NCBI GenBank assembly: GCA_937124965.1
Contig: CAKZLB010000076.1
Span: 1 to 64,000, forward strand
Source: an uncultured Bacteroidota bacterium
Lineage (GTDB): Bacteria > Bacteroidota > Bacteroidia > NS11-12g > UBA9320
DNA length: 64,000 nt
Direction of reading: 5' to 3'
This document shows, piece after piece, positions 3,587 to 53,718 of this stretch; the first letter of the stretch is position 1, and each line of letters begins with the position of its first letter. Below the pieces are notes generated by a model, which saw only the letters and a program-made list of their open reading frames with translations, was not told the DNA's origin and did not search any database. The position numbers were made by a program, and so were the translations under genes.

Positions 3587-4864
3587 TTATTCGTAGGAAA
3601 TCCAGGCGGATGGAATTCCATGGCTTTTTGCATACCCTAATAACTTAACCGCTTCAGGTCTCAATTTCGTTGCATAAATACCAACTCGATAAAATCCATT
3701 AGGCTGTGGTAGTATTCGAACATTGTCATAGTCCTTTGAAATCAATTGAGCAGAATTCTCAGCTAAACTGCGATCTTTAGTAGAAATCGCAATGACGTAG
3801 AATGACAACTCTTCGCCAGATTGTTTATATGTCGGAGTTTGAGAATCAGCAGTATTGGCCATTCCTTCATCATTCACTTTGTCGTCTATTTCGGGAACAT
3901 CAGGAACATCAACATATTTCTTTTCATCAACCTCAGTTTTCTTTTTTACTATTGGATTTTCTTTAACTGGAACTGGTGTCTCTGTTAATGGCTCTGTCTT
4001 GCGATCATCTGTCATTACAATTGGTTCAGAATAAATCACTTCAATTACTTGATTTTGGGAAAGATTGTATACATCTGATTTTAAAACAAGTAACATCTGT
4101 TCCAAATCATCAATCAGTCGGTTTATAGAATCTTGATATTCTAGAGAAATGCTATTTTTTGCTGAACTTGGACAACCGTCTAACGAAGAATCTCCCGCAA
4201 CATCGGGGCATTTATCGTTTAGATCTGCAACACCGTCAAAGTCCGAATCCTTAAGTTCTTTTGGAAAGGATGGTTTTACCGTTGACTTACGACCAATTGC
4301 TTGACTAAACCCTAGCCTATATTGCATGTGGGTTTCATACTCTCCGTTTAACTGCTGATTTAGTGCTGTTGAAAGTACCACTTTTGATTTATCTCCAAGT
4401 CTAAAATTAACACCAACTCCATATTCGTTGCTCGTAACCATTGGTTTTAGCCCCATCTTCTTGTAAGCAGATAAATAATTAAAATTGTATCCAAACGATA
4501 AAAAGGGAGAAACAAAAGCATCGGTTGGCAGCCATTTGCCATTATTAAAGTTAAATAAAAAGTCAATATCCCAACCTAATAGATATGATTTCCGAATGAG
4601 CTTATTTTCTTTTGTTTGATTTAATAAAAACCCATTTGAAATACCACTTGACACAGACCAACTTCGACTCAAATATCTGTTGTAAGAAATACGCAAACTT
4701 TGAGAAAGCGACGAATCAAAACTTGTGATTTTATTATCTAATAAACGAACGTTGTAATCGTGAAAGTCCTGATTGATCCCAAATCCATTTTTGAATTCTG
4801 AGGTTTGGGTATATCCCAAACTAGGAGCCAAAATTATCAAAAATAGAATGTACAATCGGTTCAT
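3587..4864 (-). CDS. Envelope protein: beta-barrel-like N-terminus, TSP3 repeat, SPOR-like C-terminus
   Basis: A signal peptide ending near GYTQ is followed by about 170 residues of alternating aromatic strands typical of a small outer-membrane barrel. Near residues 206-232 there is a calcium-binding thrombospondin type 3 repeat (DSDFDGVADLNDKCPD). A proline- and lysine-rich linker follows, and the last 70 residues (YVIAISTKDRSLAENSA onward) resemble a SPOR peptidoglycan-binding domain. The usual OmpA domain found after TSP3 repeats is absent, and the SPOR-like domain would supply the wall contact instead. The barrel is inferred from strand pattern only. Confidence 0.65.
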   Translation of the reverse strand: MNRLYILFLIILAPSLGYTQTSEFKNGFGINQDFHDYNVRLLDNKITSFDSSLSQSLRISYNRYLSRSWSVSSGISNGFLLNQTKENKLIRKSYLLGWDIDFLFNFNNGKWLPTDAFVSPFLSFGYNFNYLSAYKKMGLKPMVTSNEYGVGVNFRLGDKSKVVLSTALNQQLNGEYETHMQYRLGFSQAIGRKSTVKPSFPKELKDSDFDGVADLNDKCPDVAGDSSLDGCPSSAKNSISLEYQDSINRLIDDLEQMLLVLKSDVYNLSQNQVIEVIYSEPIVMTDDRKTEPLTETPVPVKENPIVKKKTEVDEKKYVDVPDVPEIDDKVNDEGMANTADSQTPTYKQSGEELSFYVIAISTKDRSLAENSAQLISKDYDNVRILPQPNGFYRVGIYATKLRPEAVKLLGYAKSHGIPSAWISYE

Positions 4865-5032
4865 CAGAGTTGTGTATTTATTAAGTCTTTAACAAAGCTA
4901 TTTGATTCTCAATGTTTTACTAAAATACGATGGAAGCAGTTTCAAACAAACGTAATTCAAAGACTAAAATTATATACACTAAACCACAAGTTTGGTACCA
5001 CCCGGGCAAACGATAATTTTCTGGCTTCGTCG

Positions 5033-5458
5033 TTACCCCTCGAACCCGATTTTATTATGGCCACCATCACAATACGGTTTGTTTTGGCTGGCACCACATC
5101 TGCAGAATGCTGTAATGTTTTCTTTCATCTCGACTTCTCCATTGGAATTTGTAACCTCCACAGAACCATGGCAAAGCAGTGGTCCATTTGGTCGAACTTG
5201 AATTTTAGTATATTCTACAGGGTTCTTCGTAGCATTTTCAGATATGTTCTCTTCAAAACTTAGGGCACCAGATGGACATAGTTTTATTTGGGCACGCAAT
5301 TCGTCGGCATTGGCATTTTCTGGACTAAGCCAAGGTTTCTCATTCGGTTTGTAAACGTTTGGAAGTGCTTTTACACACTCACCCGCATGAATACACTTCG
5401 CAGGTTGCCAAACAATAGTAATGTCACCAGCATCATATCGTTTTGTAATATCTTTCAT
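5033..5458 (-). CDS. Fused Fer4_19 ferredoxin-like / CDGSH iron-sulfur protein
   Basis: The 141-residue protein joins two small Fe-S modules. Residues 5-70 match the mono-cluster Fer4_19 (YjdI-like) domain, with C22, C28 and C61 (KLCPSGAL). Residues 95-137 are a CDGSH-type domain with C119, C121, C130 and H134 in CRCGASQNKPYCDGGH, the usual 3Cys-1His set for a 2Fe-2S cluster. It is soluble, with no signal peptide. The likely role is electron transfer or Fe-S/redox sensing. It is the last gene of a leftward run, next to pirin, a protein also linked to redox state. Confidence 0.88.
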   Translation of the reverse strand: MKDITKRYDAGDITIVWQPAKCIHAGECVKALPNVYKPNEKPWLSPENANADELRAQIKLCPSGALSFEENISENATKNPVEYTKIQVRPNGPLLCHGSVEVTNSNGEVEMKENITAFCRCGASQNKPYCDGGHNKIGFEG

Positions 5459-5476
5459 AATTAGGGTAAAAATACA

Positions 5477-6367
5477 CTATTCAATGTAATAATCATCGGG
5501 TTCAAACTCCTCAATTAAGATCCCCATACGACCTAATTGAGAATCACGCATGGCCTCCATTATCTCGGTTTGATTGTTCATTACAAATGGCCCATAATGT
5601 TCGATTTTTTCACCAATTGGCTCACCACTAAAAATAATAAATCGGGTATCAAAAACAGCTTTAATAGTTACACTGTCTCCATCGTGATTCATGGTAACAA
5701 TCTGCTTATTAAATATCGTAGTACCATTTATTTCTAGCTCTCCATCTAATAAATAGATTACCGTATTATGCGACCTCGGAATAGTATACAACTGAGACCC
5801 GTTTCGATTTAATGAACAACGTAATAGAATTAGCGGGCTAATTGTTGGAGCAGGACCAACTTTGCCTCCATACGATCCGGCGACAACAACTATTTTTCCC
5901 GTCTCGGATTCAATCACTGGAGTTTCGTCAAATGAAATGGCCTTATATTGTGGGGTCGTCATCTTTAAACGGGCAGGAACATTGACCCAAAACTGAATTA
6001 TTTCGATTTCACCACCTTGACTGGCAAGTTCTTTCGTATGTCGTTCGCTATGTGTTACACCTCTCCCAGCAAACATCCACTGAGTTCCACCCTCTTCCAC
6101 TGTTTGTTTGTTTCCTAAAGAATCTCTGTGAACAACATTTCCTTTGTACACAAATGTAATTGGACAAAATCCACGATGCGGGTGTGGACCAATACCAACG
6201 TCATTTTCACGTTGTTTTGGCAACACAATGGAATGCATATGATGAATTAAAATAAAAGGATCGCAGTATTGAAGAGACGGTTGAGGTAATGGTTGGTTAA
6301 TTAAGTGTCCACCCATATCCACTTTAGATGAGGAATAAATCTGATTTATGCTCTTTTCAGAAGTCAT
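5477..6367 (-). CDS. Pirin family protein
   Basis: The protein contains the pirin metal-site block: HPHRGF, then HRDS, then QWMFAGRGVTHSE. This gives the expected His, His, His and Glu ligands of the N-terminal cupin. A C-terminal cupin half follows. Pirins bind iron and act as redox-sensitive regulators or quercetinase-like dioxygenases; which applies here is unknown. A longer frame starts at 6394, but ATG at 6367 (MTSEKSINQ) reduces overlap with the upstream SRPBCC gene to 11 bases and is preferred. Confidence 0.9.
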   Translation of the reverse strand: MTSEKSINQIYSSSKVDMGGHLINQPLPQPSLQYCDPFILIHHMHSIVLPKQRENDVGIGPHPHRGFCPITFVYKGNVVHRDSLGNKQTVEEGGTQWMFAGRGVTHSERHTKELASQGGEIEIIQFWVNVPARLKMTTPQYKAISFDETPVIESETGKIVVVAGSYGGKVGPAPTISPLILLRCSLNRNGSQLYTIPRSHNTVIYLLDGELEINGTTIFNKQIVTMNHDGDSVTIKAVFDTRFIIFSGEPIGEKIEHYGPFVMNNQTEIMEAMRDSQLGRMGILIEEFEPDDYYIE

Positions 6368-41667: not shown

Positions 41668-43476
41668 ATGCAAAAAGGAAAGGTTTCAGTAAATACGGAA
41701 AATATTTTCCCAATCATTAAGAAGTTTCTTTACACCGATCACGAAATTTTCTTACGAGAGTTAATATCAAATGCCGTTGACGCATCAAACAAATTAAAAG
41801 TGCTTGCAGCCAAAGGTGAGAAAACTGGTCAGCTTGAGGACTTGAAAATCACCGTTAGTTTAGACGACAAGAAAAAAACGTTAACCATAAGCGACCAAGG
41901 AATTGGTATGACAGCCGAGGAGATTGACAAATACATCAATCAAATCGCTTTTAGTGGCGCTGAAGAGTTTGTCGAAAAATTCAAAGACGACAAGGAGTCT
42001 GCAAACATTATCGGTCATTTTGGTTTAGGGTTTTACTCGTCATTTATGGTGGCAGAAAAAGTAGAAATCATTTCAAAAAGCTATAAAGAAGATACGGAAT
42101 CTGCTCATTGGGAATGTGAAGGTTCTACTGATTTTAAGATTAAAAAAGGAAAACGCAAAAAGCGTGGTACAGACATCGTATTGCACATCAACGAAGAGTC
42201 TTCTGAGTTTTTAGAATCTGGCAAGATTCAAGGATTACTCTCGAAATACTGTAAGTTCTTACCAATCGAAATAGAATTTGATGGCAAGGTAATCAACAAC
42301 ACAGAACCACTATGGAAAAAGAATCCTGCTGATTTAAAAGACGAAGATTATCTCGCTTTCTACAAAGAGTTATATCCAATGGCGGAAGATCCATTGTTTT
42401 GGATTCACATGAATGTAGATTATCCATTCAACTTAACTGGAGTTCTTTACTTCCCAAAAATCAAAAAAGACATTGACCCGAATCGAAATAAAATTCAATT
42501 GTATTCGAATCAAGTATTCGTTACCGACAATGTTGAAGACATCGTTCCTGAATATTTGATGTTGATGCATGGTGTGATAGACAGTCCTGACATTCCATTA
42601 AACGTTTCAAGAAGTGCTTTACAAGCGGATGGTAATGTGAAGAAAATCACTGGTCATATCAGCAAAAAAGTAGCAGATAAGTTGAATGAATTATACAAAA
42701 AAGATGCTGCAGACTTTGAAACTAAATGGAGTTCAATTAATCTGTTTGTAAAATATGGAATGATCAGCGATGAGAAATTCTATGACAGAACGAAAAAGAT
42801 TTGTTTGATGAAAGACGTAGATGGAAAGCACACCATCCTCGAAAACTACATCGAAGATATAAAGGCAAATCAAACGGACAAAGATGGCAACACTGTCGCA
42901 TTGTACGCGTCAAACTTAGATGAGCAATACTCCTATGTTCAACAGGCTCAGGACAAAGGCTATAACGTTCTTTTGTTGGATGAATTAATTGACAATCATT
43001 TTGTTTCAAACATTGAGCAAAAACTTGATAAAGTTCAATTAAAGCGTGTTGATGCGGATACCGTAGATAAGCTAATTGACAAAGACGAAAAGTCTGAATC
43101 TGTTTTAAGTGAAGATGAAGTAACCTCGTTGAAAGAAGTATTTGAGACTACAGTTGATGCTGAAAAATTTACAATCAATCCGGTTGTATTGTCTCCAAAT
43201 GATAACTTTATAACGATTACACGATCCGAGTGGGAACGTCGTATGAGTGAAATGGGTAGCATGGGCGGAATGGCAATGTTTGGATCAATGCCTGAAAAAT
43301 ACACCATAAGTGTAAACTCAAATCACACATTGGCTAAAAAAGTCCTAGAAACTAAGGATGATGACGCTAAAAAAGCGTTGTTGAACAATGCTCTTGACCT
43401 TGCAAAATTGGCTAAAAATTTACTTAAGGGTAAAGAACTTAGTGAGTTCATAAAGCGTCAAGAAGCTGGATTATAG
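41668..43476 (+). CDS. htpG: Molecular chaperone HtpG (Hsp90)
   Basis: The 602-residue protein begins with VNTENIFPIIKKFLYTDHEIFLRELISNA and has the GHKL ATPase motifs: the ISDQGIGMT loop, HFGLGFYSSFMVAEK and the GTDIVLHI block. Middle-domain NVSRSALQADGNVKKI follows. It is slightly shorter than the E. coli protein, as usual in this phylum. It folds client proteins in the cytoplasm with ATP. It is a single gene with a clear terminator. Confidence 0.97.
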   Translation: MQKGKVSVNTENIFPIIKKFLYTDHEIFLRELISNAVDASNKLKVLAAKGEKTGQLEDLKITVSLDDKKKTLTISDQGIGMTAEEIDKYINQIAFSGAEEFVEKFKDDKESANIIGHFGLGFYSSFMVAEKVEIISKSYKEDTESAHWECEGSTDFKIKKGKRKKRGTDIVLHINEESSEFLESGKIQGLLSKYCKFLPIEIEFDGKVINNTEPLWKKNPADLKDEDYLAFYKELYPMAEDPLFWIHMNVDYPFNLTGVLYFPKIKKDIDPNRNKIQLYSNQVFVTDNVEDIVPEYLMLMHGVIDSPDIPLNVSRSALQADGNVKKITGHISKKVADKLNELYKKDAADFETKWSSINLFVKYGMISDEKFYDRTKKICLMKDVDGKHTILENYIEDIKANQTDKDGNTVALYASNLDEQYSYVQQAQDKGYNVLLLDELIDNHFVSNIEQKLDKVQLKRVDADTVDKLIDKDEKSESVLSEDEVTSLKEVFETTVDAEKFTINPVVLSPNDNFITITRSEWERRMSEMGSMGGMAMFGSMPEKYTISVNSNHTLAKKVLETKDDDAKKALLNNALDLAKLAKNLLKGKELSEFIKRQEAGL

Positions 43477-43498
43477 TTTCAGCTTAAAATATTTATTG

Positions 43499-43531
43499 AA
43501 AGGTCTTGCTAAAAAGTAAGACCTTTTTGTT
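43499..43531 (+). terminator. Terminator of htpG
   Basis: AAAGGTCTT pairs with AAGACCTTT across a short AT-rich loop and is followed by TTGTTTT. It lies about 20 bases past the htpG stop. Confidence 0.8.
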
Positions 43532-43622
43532 TTGGTATATTTGAGATTAAATCTATTTATGCATTAGCAGCTAATGGGGCAGTACCGAAAAATAGACTGA
43601 TAACTAAGCAAATAAACAAACA

Positions 43623-44162
43623 TTGAAAATAGCATATATTGTTTCTTTATTTTTGATTGTTGCCAGCACATCGTGCAGTACTAAAGGATCTTTTGATAAT
43701 ATTGATGATCATTGGTCAATTGAAAATGGGTTTTACAATAATGTAAATCTAAATAATGTGCGTGAAGATGACAATACCTTGGTATTCATGTCTGATATGT
43801 ACTTTTATAAAAATAAAATGTTTTTGCACCAAACTGATAATCATAGGATAGTAGTTAATTACGAATTGATAGAACAGGTGAACGAGTTTATGTATAAAGT
43901 ACGAATAACTTGTAAGAACGATAGTGTTGATGAAGTTGGATTTGCAATATGGGACAATTTATCGAATGGTATAGATAGAAATGGATGTGAGGAAATGATG
44001 TTTAGAAGTCCAAACTTGAATTTATATCTGTGGCGACGATGTATCGGTAATAAATCACTTCTTAGTGTCATTGACAATGGTAGAGATATCGATAGCAATC
44101 TGCTTATAGATAAAATCGAGCAGTTTAATAGTTATGGTGTTGGGCAAAAAACCGACAGATAA
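43623..44162 (+). CDS. Putative lipoprotein of unknown function
   Basis: A TTG-started protein of 179 residues with a lipoprotein signal (IAYIVSLFLIVASTSC, Cys at about residue 19). The mature part has no recognised domain; it is rich in Asn, Asp and Tyr with several Cys (RRCIGN, CKNDSV, NGCEE). It is directly upstream of the REP-like array. Low family support, but the lipobox and length make it a plausible gene. Confidence 0.5.
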   Translation: MKIAYIVSLFLIVASTSCSTKGSFDNIDDHWSIENGFYNNVNLNNVREDDNTLVFMSDMYFYKNKMFLHQTDNHRIVVNYELIEQVNEFMYKVRITCKNDSVDEVGFAIWDNLSNGIDRNGCEEMMFRSPNLNLYLWRRCIGNKSLLSVIDNGRDIDSNLLIDKIEQFNSYGVGQKTDR

Positions 44163-44219
44163 TACACCAACCACAACGTCATAGTTCACTTCAACCAATA
44201 ATTTCCTCGCACGCCCATA

Positions 44220-45212
44220 GTCGGTGTTTTCACCGACGTACGAGGCTCAAATTAGATGTTCAATTTTTAATCGTTCTATTAATTTCCTAGGATTGAATGG
44301 GGTACATTGCCTCCAGTTTAAAGTCGTCGGTGAAAACACCGACTGAGGCGTGGGTAGATTCCGTGAAGAGTTCGTAATTAAGCTCATTTTGCTTTCGCCT
44401 CAATGTTTTTTATTTGAAGCGGTGTGACTAAAGACAGTGTTACGCTTAATACACTATTTGAAGTTTAGATTGATTCGTACGTTTGTATACAACCACTTAG
44501 TTTTTAAAAACGACAACCGCAAACGTCATAATTCACGACAATGAATAAACTCCTCGCACGCCCATAGTCGGTGTTTTCACCGACGTACGAGGCTCAAAAC
44601 AAATGTTCAATTTTTAATTGTTCTATTATTTCAAAGTCGTCGGTGAAAACACCGACTGCGGCGCAGGTTGATTCGGTGAAGAGTTCGTAATTAAGCTCAT
44701 TTTGCTTTCGCCTCAATGTTTTTTATTTGAAGTGGTGTGACTAAAGACAGTGTTACGCTTAATACACTATTTGAAGTTTAGATTGATTCGTACGTTTGTA
44801 TACAACCACTTAGTTTTTAAAAACGACAACCGCAAACGTCATAATTCACGACAATGAATAAACTCCTCGCACGCCCATAGTCGGTGTTTTCACCGACGTA
44901 CGAGGCTCAAAACAAATGTTCAATTTTTAATTGTTCTATTATTTCAAAGTCGTCGGTGAAAACACCGACTGCGGCGCAGGTTGATTCGGTGAAGAGTTCG
45001 TAATTAAGCTCATTTTGCTTTCGCCTTACTGTTTAGTGCATGATGTCTTGCGACTAAAGGCTGTATAACGCTCAAATCGCCCCAGTTGCATTTTGAAATT
45101 GATTGTACACAAGTGTCGAAGTGCACCGTTTTTTAATACAACAAACACAACCACCATTATTCACAACAATGAATAAACTGCTCGCACACGCTCAGTCGGT
45201 GTTTTCACCGAC
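44220..45212. repeat. REP-like hairpin array in alternating orientations
   Basis: Seven perfect 18-nt hairpins lie in alternating order. Forward copies (GTCGGTG-TTTT-CACCGAC) are at 44220-44237, 44567-44584, 44880-44897 and 45195-45212. Reverse copies (GTCGGTG-AAAA-CACCGAC) are at 44326-44343, 44639-44656 and 44952-44969. Forward copies are preceded by ACGCCCATA or ACGCTCA, and reverse copies are followed by GGCG-containing sequence, so both have an ACGCC-like lead 5' of the stem on one strand. The alternation resembles BIME/REPIN clusters. Confidence 0.88.
44318..45027. repeat. Tandem 313-bp repeat, about 2.3 copies
   Basis: The three reverse hairpins are exactly 313 bases apart. Copies 1 and 2 differ by only a few bases across about 220 bases after the hairpin (for example AGCGG versus AGTGG). 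Copies 2 and 3 are identical from about 44505 to the point near 45027 where copy 3 runs into diverged sequence (TCGCCTCAATG versus TCGCCTTACTG). This looks like a recent tandem duplication. Confidence 0.88.
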
Positions 45213-45319
45213 GTAACATGCAAAGGAAGCCACCTACTGTAAGTCATTCTGAAGCGGTGCGACCATATACATTAGTGCATGTAATATTTTATTGAAGCCT
45301 TATAGTTTTAGTACCTTTG

Positions 45320-45640
45320 ATGTTAATGATAAAACAGCTCTTTCATATTTCAATAATTTCTATTCTAGTCATTGTGATTTTTGCTTTCAATCAACCTAAC
45401 GAATCGAAAATAGAAATGCTTCAGGCAAAGAATATTACATATGTCCAATATAGTTTTGGCTGTCCAACGTTGAAAGATACTTACAAAATCTATGGGTTTA
45501 AAATTACCTGTGCGGGATGTTCTGTTTCAAAAAGAGCTATAAAGAAAAACAAAAGAGCAATACGAAAAATTGACTCCATTTACGGGAAAGGTTGGTTTGA
45601 TGCAAATTATGAGTCTTTCATTATTCCATTTGACAAATGA
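45320..45640 (+). CDS. Small secreted or membrane-anchored protein, unknown function
   Basis: About 106 residues from ATG 45320, or fewer from ATG 45326. One hydrophobic N-terminal segment (FHISIISILVIVIFAFN) precedes a small soluble domain with three Cys (FGCPTL, ITCAGCSV). No family was recognised. It overlaps the Crp-family gene by 4 bases (ATGA), which supports it being real and co-transcribed with that regulator. Confidence 0.55.
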   Translation: MLMIKQLFHISIISILVIVIFAFNQPNESKIEMLQAKNITYVQYSFGCPTLKDTYKIYGFKITCAGCSVSKRAIKKNKRAIRKIDSIYGKGWFDANYESFIIPFDK

Positions 45641-46218
45641 GAAGTAACACTTCAATACAGCAATACATCCAAACCTACTTCGGCATAACAAACGATGACG
45701 TCGAAAAAGTTGTAGCATTATTTGAAGAAACTACCTTAAACAAAGGCGAGTATTTTGTTAAAGCAGGGCATTATTGCGACAAATTAAGTTTTATAAATGA
45801 AGGCTTAATTCGAGTGTGGCTGCCATCTGAGTCAAAAGAAATTACTCAATGGATTTCGACATCAGGGTACTTTGTTACCGATTTGTCGAGTATGGTTTTT
45901 AACACACCTGCACGATGGAATTTACAAGCATTGACCGATTGTAAACTATTTACAATTACAAAAGAGCTCTATGACAGCATGAATCAGGTAGTGAATAATT
46001 GGGACGAATTAGAAAAACTCTTTATTGCAAAATGCTTTTTAACGTTAGAAGACCGTGTATTCAGTCATATTTCTATGTCGGCTGATGAGCGATATAATCA
46101 ATTATTTGAATCAAATCCTGCGATCTTCAACCAAGTACCACTTCAATACCTAGCGTCAATGTTAGGTATGTCGGCTGAAACCTTCAGTCGCATTCGTTCA
46201 AAAAAAATACAATCGTAA
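45637..46218 (+). CDS. Crp/Fnr-family transcriptional regulator
   Basis: The 193-residue protein has an N-terminal cyclic-nucleotide-binding-like domain (LNKGEYFVKAGHYCDKLSFI, then NEGLIRVW) and a C-terminal winged helix (VPLQYLASMLGMSAETFSRI with RSKK). The canonical cAMP-contact residues are not clear, as in many Bacteroidota members, so the ligand is unknown. It probably controls the following SRPBCC gene or itself (inference). Confidence 0.88.
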   Translation: MRSNTSIQQYIQTYFGITNDDVEKVVALFEETTLNKGEYFVKAGHYCDKLSFINEGLIRVWLPSESKEITQWISTSGYFVTDLSSMVFNTPARWNLQALTDCKLFTITKELYDSMNQVVNNWDELEKLFIAKCFLTLEDRVFSHISMSADERYNQLFESNPAIFNQVPLQYLASMLGMSAETFSRIRSKKIQS

Positions 46219-46295
46219 GCTGTCAGTAAACTTCTTGACAAATGTCAAGAGGAACAGTAACAGTTGACTGGAACTTTGTACTCATATTAAACAAT

Positions 46296-46775
46296 ATGAA
46301 AACAATTACAGTAATCGCATTTACACTTTTAACACTAAACACAATGGCAGCAAAAAAAGAAATCTCGACTCAAATTATCATTAACGCATCACCTGAAAAA
46401 GTCTGGACCGTTTTAACCGATTTTGACACATATAGTGATTGGAATCCTTTTATCAAATCAATTAAGGGAAACGTTAATGTTGGTAACAAAATAAACATAC
46501 TCATAGACGGGATGAAGTTCAAACCAGAAGTTTTGGTGTACGAGTCTAATCAAGAGTTTAAATGGATTGGAAATTTATTGGTTAAAGGTTTGTTTGATGG
46601 TGAACATCGTTTTCAACTAATCGATAATGGAGATGGCACAACAACGTTTATTCAATCAGAAAAATTTAATGGAATACTCGTAAATATGTTGAGTAAAAAA
46701 CTTGACAATGAAACTATACCTGGCTTCGAGGCGATGAATTTAGCCCTTAAGAATCGTGTTGAAAGTCTCAATTAG
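46296..46775 (+). CDS. SRPBCC-family protein with signal peptide
   Basis: From ATG 46296 (MKTITVIAFTLLTLNTMAAKK) the protein has a possible signal peptide. It then has a typical SRPBCC domain: INASPEKVWTVLTDFDTYSDWNPFIKS, the EFKWIGNL and GDGTTTFIQSEKF strands and a C-terminal helix. It binds an unknown hydrophobic ligand. It follows the Crp-family gene by about 80 bases. The frame is open to 46242 but the shorter start fits the signal. Confidence 0.8.
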   Translation: MKTITVIAFTLLTLNTMAAKKEISTQIIINASPEKVWTVLTDFDTYSDWNPFIKSIKGNVNVGNKINILIDGMKFKPEVLVYESNQEFKWIGNLLVKGLFDGEHRFQLIDNGDGTTTFIQSEKFNGILVNMLSKKLDNETIPGFEAMNLALKNRVESLN

Positions 46776-46908
46776 AATTCGCTTCAGATCAAGTGGTTTG
46801 TGAGAAGCAGTTTTACCAAAAGTAATTCAATCATCAAAACATCAGGGTACTGGCTTTTGTTGTACCAAATGGCATGAAACATTGAACGCAAAGCGTATCT
46901 TTGAAATC

Positions 46909-49338
46909 ATGAAGTTTTTTCACGTTTTAATCGGGATCCTATTGTTTAATTTAGCAGAAGGTCAAGAGCAAATTGACTACCAGAAACCACCACAATCTAT
47001 TCTTGAATTAGTTGACATTGAACCTGCACCGGCTGCAGTATTTGACACGAAAAAAGAAAACATGATTCTTTTACATCGTGACTCTTACAAGTCGATTGCA
47101 GAATTATCGCAAGAAGAATTACGTTTAGCCGGATTACGAATTGACCCAGCTACAAACATCGGTAGTAGAACCTCATTTTATCATACAGTCAAACTAAAGA
47201 AGTTAACAGATCCAAATGCGAAAGCTCAAACGTCGCAAGGACTGCCTACCAACCCAAGATTAAGCAACTTCGTTTGGTCGCCAGATGAAAAGTATTTAGC
47301 ATTTACCAATACCACACAAACAGGTAACGAATTGTGGATATTAGAGATTAAAAATAACAAAGCAAAAAAACTGTCAGAACCGATATTAAATGCTAACACA
47401 TATGACGTAATCAATTGGTTTAGAGATAGTAAGTCGGTTATTGTAAAAGCAATTCCTTCAAGTCGAAAAGCACTAATCAATACAGATGTGGCTATTCCAA
47501 CAGGACCGATTGTTTCAAATAGTGATGGAAAAAAAGCACAAAATAGAACGTATCAAGATTTGTTGAAAAACAAAAACGATGAGTTCAATTTTGAACAATT
47601 AGCAACTTCAGAACTTTTAAAAATTGATTTAAATGGAAAGGCTCAAAAATGGCTAGAAACTAACATGTTTATGGATGTTAGTTTTTCACCTGATGGGAAA
47701 TATGTCATGGTTTCAACAATTGAAAAACCATTCTCTTACCTGGTTACCTATAATCGCTTTCCATCAAGAACGAATATCTATTCAGACAACGCTGAATTAA
47801 TTCAAACAGTGTCTGTTGTTCCACTTATTGAAGACCTGCCAAAAGGATTTATGGCTACTCGAAAAGGTAAGCGCGCGTTTTCTTGGAGATCAGACAAACC
47901 TGCAACACTAGTATATGCCGAAGCTTTAGATGGAGGAGATCCTGCCAAGGAAGTTGAATTTAGAGACGAAGTATTTATGGTAAACGCACCGTTTGACGGT
48001 GAAGGAAAATCATTATGTAAAACTATTAATAGATACAGTGGTATACGCTGGGGAAACGACAAATTTGCCATTTTAACGGATTATTGGTGGAACACTAGGA
48101 ACACTAAAACGTACTTAATTAATCCTTCCTCCAACAACAAAAAACAAACGATTCTTTTTGACCGAAATTATCAAGATCGATACAATGATCCAGGGTCGTT
48201 TTCTATGCATAAAGGAGAATATGGTCGAAGTGTATTAACCATTGATGAAAACAACAATGCTTTTTTAATTAGTCCCGGTTATACAAAAAGTGGCCAGTTT
48301 CCATTTCTTGATCAATTTAACTTAAAAACGTACAGCATCGAACGGTTGTTTCAATCGAAGCTCACAAACAAACTAGAAAATGTATATTCCTATGATCTGG
48401 AGCGAAATGAGTTGCTTGTTCGAATAGAGTCTCAAAATGAATATCCGAATTATTACCTCAGACCTGTAAATGATACCAAGGCTCTAAAGCAACTTACATA
48501 CTTTACAAATCCCTTTAAAAGTATTGAATCAGTCGACAAGCAAGTCATAACCTATAAACGTGAAGATGGTCTTGAATTGACTGGAACATTGTATTTACCA
48601 TTAGGGTATGACAAGGTTAAAAAAGAAAAAGTTCCATTAATCATTTGGGCATATCCAAGAGAATTTAAAGACAAAAACAGTGCTTCTCAATCCACTCAAA
48701 ATTCGAATAAATTCACCTATCCATATTACGGTTCAATGATATATTGGGTAACACAGGGGTATGCAGTTCTAGATGATGCGTCATTTCCTATTGTTGGTGA
48801 AGGTGATGCAGAACCCAATGACGATTTCAGGAAACAACTAGTAGCCAATGCAAAAGCTGCAATTGATGCCGTTGATTCTTTAGGGTACATCGACAGAAAT
48901 CGAGTTGCTTGTGGTGGTCATAGTTACGGAGCATTTATGGTCGCAAACCTATTATCGCATTCAGATTTATTTGCGGCAGGTATCGCGCGAAGTGGCGCGT
49001 ATAACAGAACTCTCACTCCATTTGGTTTCCAGAGTGAAGAACGCTCATATTGGGATGCTCCAGACGTATACAATACCATGTCACCATTTATGCATGCAGA
49101 CAAAATGAAAACACCACTTCTTTTGGTTCATGGTGAAGCTGATAACAACTCAGGAACATATCCTTTACAAAGTGAGCGGTACTTCAATGCCTTAAAAGGA
49201 CTTGGTGCTCCCGTTCGTTTGGTAATTTTACCGAAAGAAAGTCATGGGTATGCGGCCAAAGAAAGCATTATGCATTTATTATGGGAGCAACACCAATGGT
49301 TAGAAGAACATGTTAAAAACAGAGTTCTCGAGAAATAA
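46909..49338 (+). CDS. Secreted S9 family peptidase (glutamyl endopeptidase-like)
   Basis: From ATG 46909 the protein has a signal peptide (MKFFHVLIGILLFNLAEGQ), a beta-propeller N-terminal part, and a C-terminal alpha/beta hydrolase. The nucleophile elbow is GGHSYGAFM, with LLLVHGEADNNSGTYP near the acid and LPKESHGYAAKES for the His. The order and the HGEADNN block fit the S9D glutamyl-endopeptidase group of prolyl oligopeptidases. It is exported and cuts peptides in the periplasm or outside. TTG 46882 is an alternative start that weakens the signal. Confidence 0.92.
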   Translation: MKFFHVLIGILLFNLAEGQEQIDYQKPPQSILELVDIEPAPAAVFDTKKENMILLHRDSYKSIAELSQEELRLAGLRIDPATNIGSRTSFYHTVKLKKLTDPNAKAQTSQGLPTNPRLSNFVWSPDEKYLAFTNTTQTGNELWILEIKNNKAKKLSEPILNANTYDVINWFRDSKSVIVKAIPSSRKALINTDVAIPTGPIVSNSDGKKAQNRTYQDLLKNKNDEFNFEQLATSELLKIDLNGKAQKWLETNMFMDVSFSPDGKYVMVSTIEKPFSYLVTYNRFPSRTNIYSDNAELIQTVSVVPLIEDLPKGFMATRKGKRAFSWRSDKPATLVYAEALDGGDPAKEVEFRDEVFMVNAPFDGEGKSLCKTINRYSGIRWGNDKFAILTDYWWNTRNTKTYLINPSSNNKKQTILFDRNYQDRYNDPGSFSMHKGEYGRSVLTIDENNNAFLISPGYTKSGQFPFLDQFNLKTYSIERLFQSKLTNKLENVYSYDLERNELLVRIESQNEYPNYYLRPVNDTKALKQLTYFTNPFKSIESVDKQVITYKREDGLELTGTLYLPLGYDKVKKEKVPLIIWAYPREFKDKNSASQSTQNSNKFTYPYYGSMIYWVTQGYAVLDDASFPIVGEGDAEPNDDFRKQLVANAKAAIDAVDSLGYIDRNRVACGGHSYGAFMVANLLSHSDLFAAGIARSGAYNRTLTPFGFQSEERSYWDAPDVYNTMSPFMHADKMKTPLLLVHGEADNNSGTYPLQSERYFNALKGLGAPVRLVILPKESHGYAAKESIMHLLWEQHQWLEEHVKNRVLEK

Positions 49339-49400
49339 TAAAATCACTTTACCAGTCATCGTATTACATTTACAACAAGCAAGCCCACGTATAAAAAATC

Positions 49401-49814
49401 ATGGACAGAAATAAATCGTTAGAGGAATTAGAAAACGTTTTTTGGGAGAAACAAGACCAATATTTTTCCAAAACCCTCAAAGACATTCATTATTTCAGAA
49501 GAATTCCGATTAAAAAGCTCACCATTTTACAAACAGTGGCTTTATTAAAACAAGACATCGGTTCGGAAATTTTACTGCCAATTGTTTTCGAGCGCATGGA
49601 GGCCGACTTATACGAAGAAGACCCTGCAGATGGAAGCACGTTTTTATCGCACATCGACACGTTTCACAACGATATGTTCCAGAGGAGTTCAGATATGTGG
49701 AAACCAATGATGGCATTACTTAGAACAAAACGCGAAGAGGTAGAGCAATTTATTGGGTGGAAACGATACGAGGATTTAATAAATAAAATGATGGGACGCG
49801 AAATCAAACCATAG
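49401..49814 (+). CDS. CdiI-family contact-dependent inhibition immunity-like protein
   Basis: The 137-residue soluble protein starts NKSLEELENVFWEK and continues with HYFRRIPIKKLTILQTVALLKQ and IGSEILLPIVFERMEADLYEEDP. This matches the pattern of the CdiI_4-type immunity family (KSLEELEN..W, lR..Pi..Lt, llpl.le.l). Such proteins neutralise a delivered toxin domain. No toxin or secretion gene is adjacent. It lies between a peptidase and the thioredoxin pair, so it is an orphan. Confidence 0.65.
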   Translation: MDRNKSLEELENVFWEKQDQYFSKTLKDIHYFRRIPIKKLTILQTVALLKQDIGSEILLPIVFERMEADLYEEDPADGSTFLSHIDTFHNDMFQRSSDMWKPMMALLRTKREEVEQFIGWKRYEDLINKMMGREIKP

Positions 49815-49895
49815 AGTTTCGCTTCAGTCTGCAAACTTCATCATCAATCGAAAGTAAACCTGAACAAAAAGAAACCGCTAATGTTAACTAATTAT

Positions 49896-50387
49896 ATGAA
49901 ACCACTATTGCTTGCATTATTTGCATTCTCAATAATTTCGTGTTCTAAACAGGAATCAAAACCAATTCTAAAAGCAGTTAACTACGATGAGTTAAAACCT
50001 GTTTTTACATCAAATAACGACACATTATATGTTATTAATTTTTGGGCAACATGGTGCAAACCCTGTATGGAAGAACTTCCTCATTTTTTGGAAGTTGATC
50101 AGAACTATAGAAACTCTAGTAAGTATAAAATGATTTTGGTTTCACTTGACAAACGTGATAACATTGATGTTGGAGTAAAAAAGACTATAGCCACGTTGGG
50201 TATTAAACCAGATGTATATGTTTTGGACGATGTTAAAAACATGAACTACTGGATTAACGATGTGAATCCGGAATGGAGTGGATCATTACCAGCTACCGTA
50301 GCGTATAAAAACGGTAAGCAAGTTTCTTATCATGAAGGAAAATTATCGAAAGAAGAATTAGAACAATTGATTAACAAATATTTATGA
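49896..50387 (+). CDS. TlpA-like thioredoxin lipoprotein
   Basis: From ATG 49896 the protein has a lipoprotein signal ending ISCSKQ. A thioredoxin fold follows with the WATWCKPCMEELP active site (CxxC) and the cis-Pro region SLPATVAYKNGKQV. It is periplasmic, anchored to a membrane, and reduces disulfides or helps cytochrome maturation. It overlaps the next gene by 4 bases (ATGA). Confidence 0.9.
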   Translation: MKPLLLALFAFSIISCSKQESKPILKAVNYDELKPVFTSNNDTLYVINFWATWCKPCMEELPHFLEVDQNYRNSSKYKMILVSLDKRDNIDVGVKKTIATLGIKPDVYVLDDVKNMNYWINDVNPEWSGSLPATVAYKNGKQVSYHEGKLSKEELEQLINKYL

Positions 50388-51115
50388 AAAACACACTAGT
50401 TATTTTAAGCTCAATTTTGTTACTGGCCTCATGTGGTCAAAAGCAATCCGATGCACCAGAACAAGTTGAAGAAACAAAGGACACTGTAGTTACTGAGACC
50501 AAAGAAATGGGAATCATGCCTAAAGGGTATGGAATCTTGGATGAAGCAACTGATTTCAAACTACCTTCAACAAATGGGACTATGGTTTCTTTATCCGACT
50601 ATCCCGATGCCAAAGGTTTTATCGTAACGTTTACGTGTAATCATTGTCCGTATGCAGTCGCGTACGAACAACGAATAATGGATTTAGATAAAAAATATGC
50701 ACCACTGGGTTATCCGGTAATTGCAATTAGTCCAAATGACCCGGAGCTTGTACCTGAAGATAATATGGAAAACATGAAAAAACTAGCAGAAGAAAAAGGC
50801 TATACATTCCCTTATTTATTGGATGAAGGACAAGCAATTTATCCTCAGTATGGAGCGACAAAAACACCACATATGTTTGTGTTAAACAAAGAAGATGGTA
50901 AAAATATTGTTAGATATATTGGCGCGATTGACAACAATTATGAAAACGCTGACGACGTGACTGAACGATACGTTGAAGACGCCGTAGATGCATTGTTGGC
51001 TGGTAATGAAATCGCTATGACTAGTACCAAAGCAATTGGTTGTAGCATAAAAGATAAGCGCAAGCCAAGAGGTAAAAAAGGCAAGAAAAAGCATCACGAG
51101 AAAAAAGAATCTTAA
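50384..51115 (+). CDS. Peroxiredoxin-like thioredoxin-fold lipoprotein with basic tail
   Basis: A lipobox (LLLASCGQ) leads into an AhpC/TSA-Redoxin-type domain: DFKLPSTNGTMVSLSDY, then FTCNHCPYAVAYEQR with a CxxC-like pair, and GATKTPHMFVLNKE. The C-terminus is unusually basic (KPRGKKGKKKHHEKK). It works in the envelope with the TlpA-like partner encoded directly upstream. Peroxidase activity is not certain because the family also includes simple thiol-disulfide carriers. Confidence 0.87.
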   Translation: MKNTLVILSSILLLASCGQKQSDAPEQVEETKDTVVTETKEMGIMPKGYGILDEATDFKLPSTNGTMVSLSDYPDAKGFIVTFTCNHCPYAVAYEQRIMDLDKKYAPLGYPVIAISPNDPELVPEDNMENMKKLAEEKGYTFPYLLDEGQAIYPQYGATKTPHMFVLNKEDGKNIVRYIGAIDNNYENADDVTERYVEDAVDALLAGNEIAMTSTKAIGCSIKDKRKPRGKKGKKKHHEKKES

Positions 51116-51136
51116 GTTTTAACGACATTCTTAATG

Positions 51137-51180
51137 AAGCCATTGAACGATAGTATTTGCTAAGTTCAATGGCTTTTTTG
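51137..51180 (+). terminator. Terminator of the thioredoxin pair
   Basis: AAGCCATTGAAC pairs exactly with GTTCAATGGCTT and is followed by a T run. It lies about 20 bases after the stop of the redoxin gene. Confidence 0.88.
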
Positions 51181-51225
51181 TTGAGCATTTTTTTAGGACC
51201 AATCACAACTAGAATATAAGCGCTT

Positions 51226-51280
51226 TAATTGTCGGTGAAAACACTGGCGTGGTTGATTTAAGACTCTTTCATCTTACTTG
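51226..51280. repeat. Left direct repeat around the RAYT, with a decayed hairpin
   Basis: Apart from a 6-base gap these 55 bases equal 52166-52226. The hairpin GTCGGTG-AAAA-CACCGAC has lost CCGACA, apparently by slippage between two CAC triplets, leaving GTCGGTGAAAACACTGGCG. Confidence 0.8.
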
Positions 51281-51353
51281 TCGGTTAAATAAATCGACAA
51301 CGATGAGTTTGATTTATGACTATTTCATTGAAGTTGCTGAGATAAAAAAAACG

Positions 51354-51407
51354 CTTAGATTACCCCTCCTTACGTAAGAGAATTTAATCGTCAATGAAAT
51401 CACCGAT
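51354..51407. repeat. Left copy of the RAYT-flanking module with decayed hairpin
   Basis: TTAGATTACCCCTCCTTACG matches the right-flank copy starting near 52123. It is followed by GTCAATG-AAAT-CACCGAT, a mutated hairpin, and TTTGGCGTAAG, the usual GGCGT tail. Confidence 0.65.
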
Positions 51408-51518
51408 TTTGGCGTAAGAAAAGCATCCAATGTAAGGTAATCTGCCTTTCCCTTCTGCAGACCAAGCACACAAAAATCCAACTCAATTCCAACAAAACTA
51501 TTTCTCAAGACGCCCAAA

Positions 51519-51536
51519 GTCGGTGTTTTCACCGAC
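51519..51536 (+). repeat. Perfect REP-like hairpin next to the RAYT stop codon
   Basis: GTCGGTG-TTTT-CACCGAC, preceded by ACGCCCAAA. It ends 3 bases before the stop codon of the leftward transposase gene. Confidence 0.9.
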
Positions 51537-51539
51537 ACT

Positions 51540-52091
51540 TTAGTCATGATAAAAATTTGTCACAAAATCCCATTCGTATTTCCCGTCATAATAATTCGAA
51601 GCCGAGGAAAACTTGTAATCTTGTGGACATAATGCTAAGTGCCAATGCCTTTGTAATGGATTGTTGTGAATGTAAACCATTTTCTGTTCAAACACTGAAA
51701 CAGAATACAGATTAATGGATAGTGAACGTTTCTGCCAAAACTGGTATTGTCGATCATTTAAACTACTTATAAAGGTATGGAGTCTATTATCATTCCGTTC
51801 CAATAAATAAAACTTAAAACATTGTGCTGTATATTTTAAGAAATCTCGTTGAACATTCTTCAACTTATGGGCATGTAACATTTCCCAAATAATGTGTAAA
51901 TGATTTGGCATAATTACAAATGCAAATACTCTTACCCGTTTATTAGAAACCAAAAACCTAAGGCTGTCAATAACAATCATTTTTAAATCGTCTGATTTCA
52001 ATAAATGCTTCCATTTCACAATGGTTGCAGTCGTAAAATAACAAGAGTCGGAATTAACTAAACTCAACATCTTGACAAATTTGAGACTCAA
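51540..52091 (-). CDS. REP-associated tyrosine transposase (RAYT, Y1/IS200-like)
   Basis: The 183-residue protein carries the HUH metal-binding motif VIMPNHLHIIWEM, a preceding KRVRVFAFVI strand, the YIHNNPLQ motif and the SSASNYYDG tail, all typical of RAYTs and IS200/Y1 transposases. A first-domain YFTTATIVKW block also fits. The start is TTG 52091 or ATG 52070 (eighth codon). The gene lies inside a cluster of the same hairpin family that occurs elsewhere in the window. RAYTs cut and join single-stranded REP hairpins; here the pairing is inferred from proximity. Confidence 0.92.
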   Translation of the reverse strand: MSLKFVKMLSLVNSDSCYFTTATIVKWKHLLKSDDLKMIVIDSLRFLVSNKRVRVFAFVIMPNHLHIIWEMLHAHKLKNVQRDFLKYTAQCFKFYLLERNDNRLHTFISSLNDRQYQFWQKRSLSINLYSVSVFEQKMVYIHNNPLQRHWHLALCPQDYKFSSASNYYDGKYEWDFVTNFYHD

Positions 52092-52122
52092 TTATAAAAT
52101 CTTTAAATCTATTCTTTGGACT

Positions 52123-52226
52123 ATTAGATTAGTCCTCCTTACGTAAACGAATTTCGATTTTCGCCTAATTGTCGGTGAAAACACCGACACTGGCGTGGTT
52201 GATTTAAGACTCTTTCATCTTACTTG
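52123..52226. repeat. Right direct repeat around the RAYT, with an intact hairpin
   Basis: TTAGATTAGTCCTCCTTACG (52124 on) matches the left copy near 51355. The intact hairpin GTCGGTG-AAAA-CACCGAC is at 52171-52188, followed by ACTGGCGTGG. Bases 52166-52226 match 51226-51280 apart from six bases. Confidence 0.82.
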
Positions 52227-52237
52227 GTCGCCCAAAG

Positions 52238-52289
52238 TCGGTATTGTCGTCGATGCTTCATGTGCTTTGTTTGTCGTTAAAACACCGAC
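52238..52289. repeat. Two further degraded REP-like hairpins
   Basis: 52238-52255 reads GTCGGTATTGTCGTCGAT, with a CGCCCAAA lead. 52273-52289 reads GTCGTTAAAACACCGAC and is followed by ACCTGCGTGG. Both keep the family order of lead, stem and loop but with mismatches. Confidence 0.6.
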
Positions 52290-52334
52290 ACCTGCGTGGG
52301 GGTAGAACATTGGCACTGGCGTGCGGAAACAGAA

Positions 52335-52913
52335 TTATATTGTGTTATATGTAAAATAGGTAACATCATTGAATACAAACAAGTAAATATGTTCCCTGCC
52401 AGTTTCGACAAATTCATATACCACAGCATCATTTCTTTTACTACATCGTTTCCACCAAATCGGACAGCTTACTAAATTGTTCATGTTAATGGAACTAGTA
52501 GCCAATGACAAACCGTTTTTTTGAACAATAGCATTAACAACTTCTTCATTGTTTTCGAAACTGATATACACTGCACATCCATCGAAAAATGAAATTCTGG
52601 ACGCTTCTAAGACAGTTACCTTCCGGTTTTCAACACTTGTAAGGGTGTAGCTTTCAAAAAGTTTGTTTTTGGAGTAACGCCAGGTATCGAATGATAACAA
52701 AGCTACGATGGATAGTACTCCAACTATTGAGAATTGCTTAATTGTCCATTTATTTCGAAATAAATACACCACCACTTGTATTGGCAATAAAAACATCATC
52801 AAATCAATTGGCACAGGTGATAGTCTATCAGAACCAAGAAAATAAATAAGTATCCTTGAACTAACTATCAAAGCCGCAACATAAAGCAGCTGCACAAGAC
52901 AACCTTTTTTCAT
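52335..52913 (-). CDS. Membrane protein of unknown function
   Basis: 192 residues with about three hydrophobic helices in the first 85 residues (LVQLLYVAALIVSSRILIYF, IDLMMFLLPIQVVVYLF and FSIVGVLSIVALLSF). A soluble beta-like domain of about 100 residues follows. No family was recognised. It is 79 bases downstream of the GIDE-like gene on the same strand. Confidence 0.5.
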   Translation of the reverse strand: MKKGCLVQLLYVAALIVSSRILIYFLGSDRLSPVPIDLMMFLLPIQVVVYLFRNKWTIKQFSIVGVLSIVALLSFDTWRYSKNKLFESYTLTSVENRKVTVLEASRISFFDGCAVYISFENNEEVVNAIVQKNGLSLATSSINMNNLVSCPIWWKRCSKRNDAVVYEFVETGREHIYLFVFNDVTYFTYNTI

Positions 52914-52992
52914 TAATAAAGGAATTGAGCTAAAATTTCTCCTAAAACGTTGCCTAGTTGATCGATTTGATCTTTTATAAAATCCCTTTGAT

Positions 52993-53718
52993 TCATTTTT
53001 TCAAGTATCTATGCTCATGCCTATTTGATTTTCTCCGTACATTGTGATTTTTAGTTGCTTGTTTAATGCTCACTACCACATCGTCGGTCAAATAAACTTT
53101 ATCATCTACTGGTGCAGAAATTTCAAGCACTTTACCATAACTTACAGGCAATCCTAACTCCGACGCTTCTTTCCAATTCCCTTCGCCAAAGATCGCTACT
53201 TCTTCATTCTCTTCCAAAATGCCTTCGTTATATCGTAATGTCCGGTTCATCCCGAAAAAACCTTCACTTTGTGCATTATGCCTATTTAAGAATTTTTCTA
53301 AATGCTTTTCAGCATCATTTCCAAACCCAGAGCTGTAGTTTTTATCTTTAACCAAATAACATATTAACGATTTATGATTTATGAAAGCGTAGTGTTCGTC
53401 TTGTTTAATCAAGTAAGAAACATGTTTCCTTTCAGAAATGATTGTATCCCAATACGAGTTTTTACCATTAGACTTTTTATGCTCAACCTCTACATCATAA
53501 AAGGCACATTTCCTGTTCGAAAAAGGAGCCGTCAAGGGTTTGTCAACAAAACGTACATTACCGATAACCTTGCCAAATTCGCCATTCTTAAAACTTGAAA
53601 TCTTTTTTAATTCAGCCTTTTTTAATTTTTTACGAATAACTATCTTATCAGAAGAAAAATATGAGTAAAGTATAACGCCAAGACCAAATCCAATAACTAA
53701 AACAATAATGACAGTCAT
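52993..53718 (-). CDS. Membrane-anchored protein with GIDE/E3 ligase-like domain
   Basis: 241 residues: one N-terminal helix (VIIVLVIGFGLGVILYSYF) and a soluble region with ELKKISSFKNGEFGKVIGNV and PLTAPFSNRKCAFYDVEVEH. This is the pattern of the GIDE domain (the part of the mitochondrial MUL1 ligase outside its RING finger). There is no RING finger. Bacterial relatives are membrane proteins of unknown function. The match is by pattern, so moderate confidence. Confidence 0.6.
   Translation of the reverse strand: MTVIIVLVIGFGLGVILYSYFSSDKIVIRKKLKKAELKKISSFKNGEFGKVIGNVRFVDKPLTAPFSNRKCAFYDVEVEHKKSNGKNSYWDTIISERKHVSYLIKQDEHYAFINHKSLICYLVKDKNYSSGFGNDAEKHLEKFLNRHNAQSEGFFGMNRTLRYNEGILEENEEVAIFGEGNWKEASELGLPVSYGKVLEISAPVDDKVYLTDDVVVSIKQATKNHNVRRKSNRHEHRYLKK

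Follow-up and report, generated by a model that had tools for sequence, protein, structure and literature searches.

The RAYT gene and its flanking repeats

The window analysed here is a stretch of 64,000 nucleotides from a genome of 4.09 Mb in 79 contigs, which to judge from its relatives belongs to the Bacteroidota. On its reverse strand lies an open reading frame which, judged from its sequence and predicted fold, is a REP-associated tyrosine transposase (RAYT) with the HUH motif and the tyrosine intact. The gene sits inside one inverted pair of REPs (51519 and 52171), the tags of which point outward. The features are as follows.

51540 to 52091, reverse strand: RAYT gene (Y1 HUH transposase), 183 aa from TTG at 52091; identified by the open reading frame, the family model NF047646 and the structure 4er8
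51511 to 51536, reverse strand: intact REP 3' of the RAYT gene; CGCC tag at 51511-51514, hairpin at 51519-51536; tag points away from the gene
52171 to 52198, forward strand: intact REP 5' of the RAYT gene; hairpin at 52171-52188, then ACTGGCGTGG; tag points away from the gene
51231 to 51256, forward strand: decayed REP, 6 nt of the right arm missing
51390 to 51414, forward strand: decayed REP with 3 differences; TTTGGCG tag
52273 to 52298, forward strand: decayed REP with one arm damaged; CTGCGTGG tag
44210 to 45212, no strand assigned: seven perfect REPs in a cluster (44220, 44326, 44567, 44639, 44880, 44952 and 45195), alternating in orientation
322 to 440, no strand assigned: three REPs in one intergenic stretch (322, 357 and 423)

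The initial annotation had placed the gene between hairpin copies, and the positions it gave were reproduced: the perfect hairpin at 51519-51536 ends 3 nt ahead of the RAYT stop codon, which starts at 51540, and 79 nt separate the TTG start at 52091 from the intact hairpin further upstream, at 52171-52188. The length of the homologues favours the ATG at 52070 over this TTG as the start. While these two copies are intact, the copy at 51231 is decayed and lacks 6 nt relative to its sister copy at 52171. A 40-nt direct repeat (51241-51280 and 52187-52226, 100% identical) also flanks the RAYT gene, and its first copy adjoins the decayed REP at 51231. In the cluster at 44210-45212, three pairs with outward tags are spaced 88, 54 and 54 nt. 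The stretch 44317-45075 consists of 313-bp tandem units (98% identical over 300 nt) with two REPs per unit, that is, REP DNA amplified in tandem. Near the start of the window, REP 357 carries a compensated T:A pair, and REP 423 has its tag on the side opposite to the rule described below. A tRNA scan of 43000-53500 gave no tRNA.

The window protein contains the motifs NH[LIV]H (as MPNHLHII), WQ, YIH[QN]NP (as YIHNNP) and SS. The first and third of these had led to its initial assignment as a Y1-type RAYT, which was borne out by the family and structure comparisons. The protein matched NF047646, the model for REP-associated tyrosine transposases, with 74 bits against a cut-off of 80; when eight relatives were scored singly, four were above this cut-off and four below. 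An alignment of the window protein with the proteins of 59 of the 80 homologous loci described below (60 rows) was then used. All 60 members matched NF047646 at E <= 0.001, and H64 and H66 of the HUH motif and Y140 are invariant in all 60, which gives a Y1 arrangement with a single catalytic tyrosine. The best family match was the REP-associated model, and the IS200 model matched just 6 of the 60.

The structure model of the window protein had a mean pLDDT of 93.4. Its nearest solved structure was 4er8, in which E. coli TnpA-REP is bound to a REP hairpin. This structure had a Foldseek E of 1.2e-7 and a Z of 14.4 (136 residues, rmsd 2.7), the next one reaching a Z of 12.0. A profile of the 60 aligned homologues also found 4er8 in the PDB (E 6.3e-6). 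A phmmer search of the PDB with the single window protein gave no match. In a Pfam scan of the same protein, three matches were found, all under their cut-offs; Y1_Tnp had an E of 0.037, and the best of the three, P34-Arc, is surely spurious.

The genome of the window holds one close RAYT copy. The sole other match at E <= 0.001 is a paralogue of 34% identity on another contig (G000:C36:330428-331012; L037, L058), adjoining a long hairpin with a stem that contains GTAG...CTAC. The core of that hairpin occurs twice in the genome, both times beside the paralogous gene. The paralogue is not supported as the owner of the REPs of the window type, because its own hairpin differs from them and occurs only these two times.

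The repeat in the genome of the window

The hairpin GTCGGTGN4CACCGAC, with up to 2 mismatches, was found at 13 places in the window, where shuffled sequences gave an expectation of 0.01. In the whole genome the perfect form occurs 20 times, with 10 of these copies beyond the window, and when a compensated C:G to T:A pair at position 3 was allowed (GTYGGTG-N4-CACCRAC), 28 hairpins were found, 12 in the window and 16 outside; the reversed control gave 0 in both searches. Counts no higher than chance outside the window had been named initially as evidence against the annotation; the 28 hairpins against 0 in the control, 16 of them outside the window, show instead that the hairpin is enriched genome-wide. 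With up to 3 mismatches, 104 places were found in the genome against 68 in the control. The excess of hairpins therefore resides in the near-perfect copies, and REP counts were restricted to perfect or compensated hairpins, the 3-mismatch counts being noisy.

The 28 hairpins are spread over 7 contigs. None of them lies within an open reading frame of at least 100 codons, although such reading frames make up 89% of the window. The hairpin is a REP by the general criteria: it is extragenic, dispersed, palindromic and multicopy. Many contig ends have a REP cluster no more than about 1 kb away (C5, C22, C39, C42, C59, C67, C73 and C76, the last being the contig of the window). The true number of REPs may therefore exceed 28, and the assembly probably breaks at REP clusters. 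At G000:C67:211152-212111 (L051), altered REPs (GTTGGTGAAAGCGCCAAC and relatives) follow one another with a period of ~165 bp.

The typical element, oriented by its purine-rich loop, reads C-GTYGGTG-ARAA-CACCRAC-TNN-RGCG. The GCG tag starts 3-7 nt past the stem in 26 of the 28 copies, and a single copy has GCG on the other side. In the two exceptions to the rule, C67:235054 and C76:423, a tag of similar sequence lies opposite to the usual side. Thus the bare 18-nt hairpin of the initial annotation does recur as a family, but the repeating unit is the hairpin together with a one-sided tag. In 24 of the 28 copies, a C and a T form a C/T mismatch directly outside the 7-bp stem. At the next three positions outward, no pair is formed in 17 copies, one in 10 and two in 1. 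Among neighbouring REPs within 1 kb, 4 of 17 pairs are outward, 7 inward and 6 in the same direction; the outward doublet is therefore not a general rule in this genome.

One reading of these data is that the gene belongs to an ordinary IS200/IS605-type insertion sequence, with its two hairpins as the element ends and the other hairpins as leftover ends. The Y1 fold is the same, and the gene has hairpins on both sides. This reading nevertheless appears very unlikely, as one close gene copy (plus the 34% paralogue) stands against 28 hairpins, and the genome does not hold several near-identical whole units. The hairpin copies are both single and clustered, with differing flanks, and the family matches described above point to the REP-associated model rather than to IS200.

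We consider it highly probable that the locus is instead a REPtron, in which inverted copies of a REP enclose the single-copy RAYT gene to which that REP belongs; the RAYT would read, cut and spread it. The family, the predicted fold, the catalytic residues, the tagged REP, the outward flanking copies, the dispersal and the association between RAYT and REP can be read from the sequence. Points against the REPtron reading are the family score of 74 below the cut-off of 80, the outward orientation of only 4 of 17 neighbouring pairs and the 2 of 28 tags on the wrong side, and further ones are the homologous loci without near hairpins, the genomes in which RAYT and hairpins do not coincide and the lack of a visible fixed cleavage site in the flanks, all described below.

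Hairpins and tags beside homologous genes

A comparative set was made of the best 80 of at least 433 relatives, obtained from a scan of named genomes. By their titles, 79 of these best 80 loci are from Bacteroidota and one is from Ignavibacteriae. Perfect hairpins in the best 80 of at least 433 loci are 13-fold denser within 400 nt of the gene than beyond 1200 nt (3.38/kb vs 0.26/kb). Eight of the 80 loci lacked a qualifying hairpin in the 400-nt zone around the gene. The sample of near hairpins comprised 211, of which 8 were dropped for half-purine loops, leaving 203, and one more was dropped for short flanks, leaving 202.

In this sample from the best 80 of at least 433 loci, GGC on the strand with the purine loop begins at a distance of exactly 10 nt from the end of the loop in 102 of the 202 near hairpins, compared with 3 of 202 on the other side. 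Among the far hairpins of the same loci the numbers are 9 of 84 and 2 of 84. Counted by locus, GGC favours the purine-loop strand side in 49 of the 72 loci with near hairpins and the other side in none; for GG alone, 58 loci are for and 1 against, with 13 ties. The opposite strand accordingly reads 5'-NGCC at the foot of the hairpin (96/203 vs 5/203 on the other strand). Among the hairpins with GGC near the expected place in these best 80 loci (n = 112), the stem measures 9-11 bp in 96 and the loop 4 nt in 85.

Within the best 80 of at least 433 loci, the tagged hairpin closest to the gene on a given side was outward-facing in 74 of 80 cases, and the same 5-bp apical stem is found inverted on both sides of the gene in 40 of the 80 loci. 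Hairpins tagged with GGC are present on both sides in just 31 of the 80.

The genome of the window has a stem of 7 bp, followed by about 3 unpaired nucleotides and the tag, and the others have 10 bp followed by the tag. The two layouts therefore give one common distance from loop to tag. The short-stem layout was also found in L114 (GGC after 3 nt), in L128 (after 4 nt) and in copies in the genome G474. In L114, from Pedobacter nanyangensis, an array of REPs with 7-bp stems lies downstream of the RAYT (4521-5723), with copies in the same direction often ~300 bp apart.

The lead of the hairpin had been described at the outset as different from GTAG, and the counts agree. Within 2 nt 5' of the foot, GT[AG]G was found in 1 of 203 hairpins on the NGCC strand and in 5 of 203 on the other, and CGTC was found at the foot in 2 of 203 on either strand, again in the best 80 of at least 433 loci. 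We also considered the possibility that these repeats belong to the published GTAG or CGTC tagged superfamilies and that their tag has been misread, since CGTC repeats are reported from Bacteroidetes (PMC3733652). The same paper states that CGTC repeats do not flank transposase genes. As GT[AG]G and CGTC are this rare beside 96 of 203 for NGCC, a misread tag is already contradicted by the tag counts, and we regard it as extremely improbable.

Stem type, RAYT type and co-occurrence

The relationship between stem and RAYT was analyzed in 20 genomes picked by the hairpin beside the RAYT, 10 of the GTTGGTG type and 10 of the GTTCGTG type. Hairpins of GTTGGTG were found in all 10 genomes of their own type (3-22 copies) and in 2 of the 10 of the other type (4 and 3 copies). 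Those of GTTCGTG were found in 9 of 10 genomes of their own type (1-13 copies) and in none of the other. The reversed controls were all 0 for both stem types. In G122, G124, G125 and G126, the GTTCGTG copies are single or within ~1 kb and are apparently merely the gene-side copies, so that the spread in these four genomes is modest.

A RAYT tree was built from 71 proteins, 10 of the 81 (80 loci and the window) having been dropped for internal stops or short length; 58 of the 71 rows had a stem label and 13 had none. The stem label changes 22 times on this tree, compared with 36.5 times in shuffles, and none of 200 shuffles was as low. For the TTCGTG label there are 3 changes compared with 13.4 after shuffling. 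Four rare labels are unclustered (CAGGTG, 4 vs 3.9; TCTGTG, 3 vs 3.0; CCTGTG, 2 vs 2.0; and the window's own label TCGGTG, 2 vs 2.0). Overall the stem tracks the RAYT tree, and the stem and the RAYT type change together.

Co-occurrence was then examined among relatives. With the window's own genome counted, two or more hairpins were found in 20 of 35 genomes of the class with a close RAYT and in 8 of 361 without (396 genomes; Fisher p 3e-18), where the line for a close RAYT (at least 170 bits) and the two-hairpin line were both set after the scores were known. The result is opposite to an equal frequency of the hairpin with and without the RAYT, which had been named initially as evidence against the association. 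Among 58 relatives the numbers were 7 of 11 and 2 of 47 (Fisher p 3e-5). For one or more hairpins in the 396 genomes, they were 21 of 35 and 28 of 361 (p 8e-13). The reversed control was present in 20 of the 396 genomes, twice in one of them, and single hairpins are therefore near chance level.

There are exceptions on both sides. Fewer than two hairpins of the searched pattern were found in 15 of the 35 genomes with a close RAYT; these genomes may carry other stem types, and one of them, G014, carries the TTCGTG type. In G038, 7 hairpins were present, none of them found beside its RAYT. In the other direction, 8 genomes without a close RAYT hold 2 to 26 hairpins, the largest numbers being 26 in G378, 11 in G305 and 8 in G252, and 4 of these 8 have more distant RAYTs. 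In the hairpin stretches of G252 and G146 the tags are present, with no RAYT within the stretches inspected. The genome G019 has six hairpins together with RAYT remnants that contain stops. Loss of the RAYT after the spread of the REPs would explain hairpin genomes without a close RAYT. In G378, G305 and G252, in which no close RAYT was detected, the REPs may be orphans, the gene may fall in an assembly gap or another mobiliser may be present.

The eight genomes with two or more hairpins (up to 26) and no close RAYT would also be expected if the hairpins were independent elements, such as terminators, protein-binding sites or RNA elements, among which the RAYT merely happens to lie. According to PMC6006769, Proteobacterial REPs have side roles of this kind. 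The 13-fold density by the gene, the outward tags and the dependence of stem type on RAYT type speak against this interpretation, which we consider very improbable. As terminators in particular, the hairpins are not supported: in the scoring of 43900-52400 no perfect copy scored, and the sole match was the decayed copy at 51230. The REPtron, with REPs that belong to the RAYT, is the preferred reading in what follows.

Tag recognition and a possible mechanism

According to PMC6006769, W94, Q95, E100, H101 and R104 of E. coli TnpA-REP take part in the contact with GTAG, and the GTAG-contact region is not conserved in RAYT subclass 2.6. We paired positions with E. coli TnpA-REP by profile alignment to 4er8. 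The counterpart of W94 is retained in 59 of the 60 aligned members. In place of E100, 49 of the 60 have S or A; H101 is replaced by I or V in 52 of them, and R104 by Y, F or W in 42.

According to PMC8266576, the Proteobacterial enzymes bind one strand of the single-stranded REP, with the tag as a guide, cut through a tyrosine and promote the dispersal of REPs. By analogy, we infer that the RAYT of the window cleaves its REP and that the REPs are mobile. The RAYT would bind, in single-stranded DNA, the REP strand on which 5'-NGCC precedes the hairpin and the loop is rich in pyrimidines. It would read the loop-side stem and the tag at a fixed 10 nt from the loop, and the cut would be made through Tyr140. 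The REPs would then spread, singly or paired, to new intergenic sites. In such a mechanism, NGCC would take over the guide role that GT[AG]G has in Proteobacterial REPs.

For one of these Proteobacterial enzymes, the guide was shown to select the cut dinucleotide (PMC8266576). If the guide logic proposed in that paper for a group 3 RAYT holds here, NGCC would select a GG or GC cut instead of CT, which is given as a prediction only. A fixed cleavage dinucleotide was sought in the hairpin flanks with a position table, and none was visible.

We think it rather more probable than its opposite that NGCC marks a third tagged REP superfamily, one of the Bacteroidota with its own RAYT clade, in which an altered recognition region would read the tag at a distance of 10 nt from the loop. 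As part of this interpretation, and with the same moderate confidence, the genome of the window would have lost the outer three stem pairs and kept the tag spacing.

Comparison with known systems

The initial annotation had called the system a possibly poorly described Bacteroidota version of REP/RAYT. This is a fair description, but the kind is known: PMC6006769 (2018) reports a Bacteroidetes RAYT subclass 2.6 with manually found flanking structures that lack GT[AG]G and are termed 'atypical'. Subclass 2.6 (RAYT group 5) resembles the present clade in its occurrence in Bacteroidetes, its length of ~180 aa, its NH[LIV]H, WQ, YIH[QN]NP and SS motifs, its flanking hairpins, which lack GT[AG]G and occur repeatedly in the genome, and its lack of conservation in the GTAG-contact region. 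It differs in that the structures are termed atypical and weak and that no tag is given for them, whereas most tagged stems of the present clade are 9-11 bp and carry the NGCC tag at a fixed spacing. Further marks of subclass 2.6 are an insertion between helix C and strand 4 and its placement in the RAYT tree. The clade is likely identical with subclass 2.6, as compared by description.

The E. coli RAYT (TnpA-REP) and its GTAG REPs (groups 2 and 3; PMC8266576; 4er8) share with the present system the Y1 HUH fold, inverted flanking REPs and dispersed extragenic hairpins with a one-sided tag. They differ in having GT[AG]G where NGCC is found here, and the counterparts of E100, H101 and R104 are replaced here. 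In the genomes counted here the REP copy numbers are tens or fewer, which is a further difference from the E. coli system. The CGTC-tagged REPs are likewise short tagged palindromes, some of them in Bacteroidetes, but their tag is another one (2/203 here) and, according to PMC3733652, they are without an associated transposase. The IS200/IS605 elements (IS608 and ISDra2) have the same Y1 HUH fold and subterminal hairpins, whereas here one close gene copy accompanies 28 hairpins.

No report of the NGCC tag, of the spacing rule or of stem co-evolution for Bacteroidetes RAYTs was found in searches of the open-access literature in PMC, many subscription papers lying outside these searches. By this comparison, this is a real RAYT/REP system, in which the tag variant is new and sharply definable and the kind is already in print (PMC6006769). 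The NGCC rule provides a means to search for REPs in a phylum where searches based on GT[AG]G would miss them. While the biochemically studied RAYT/REP pairs use GTAG in the literature covered by this comparison, many Bacteroidota RAYTs have another tag in common, which keeps a constant distance from the loop. This natural series of RAYT/REP pairs makes the question of the guide tag, both the choice of the cut site and the residues that read it, directly testable.
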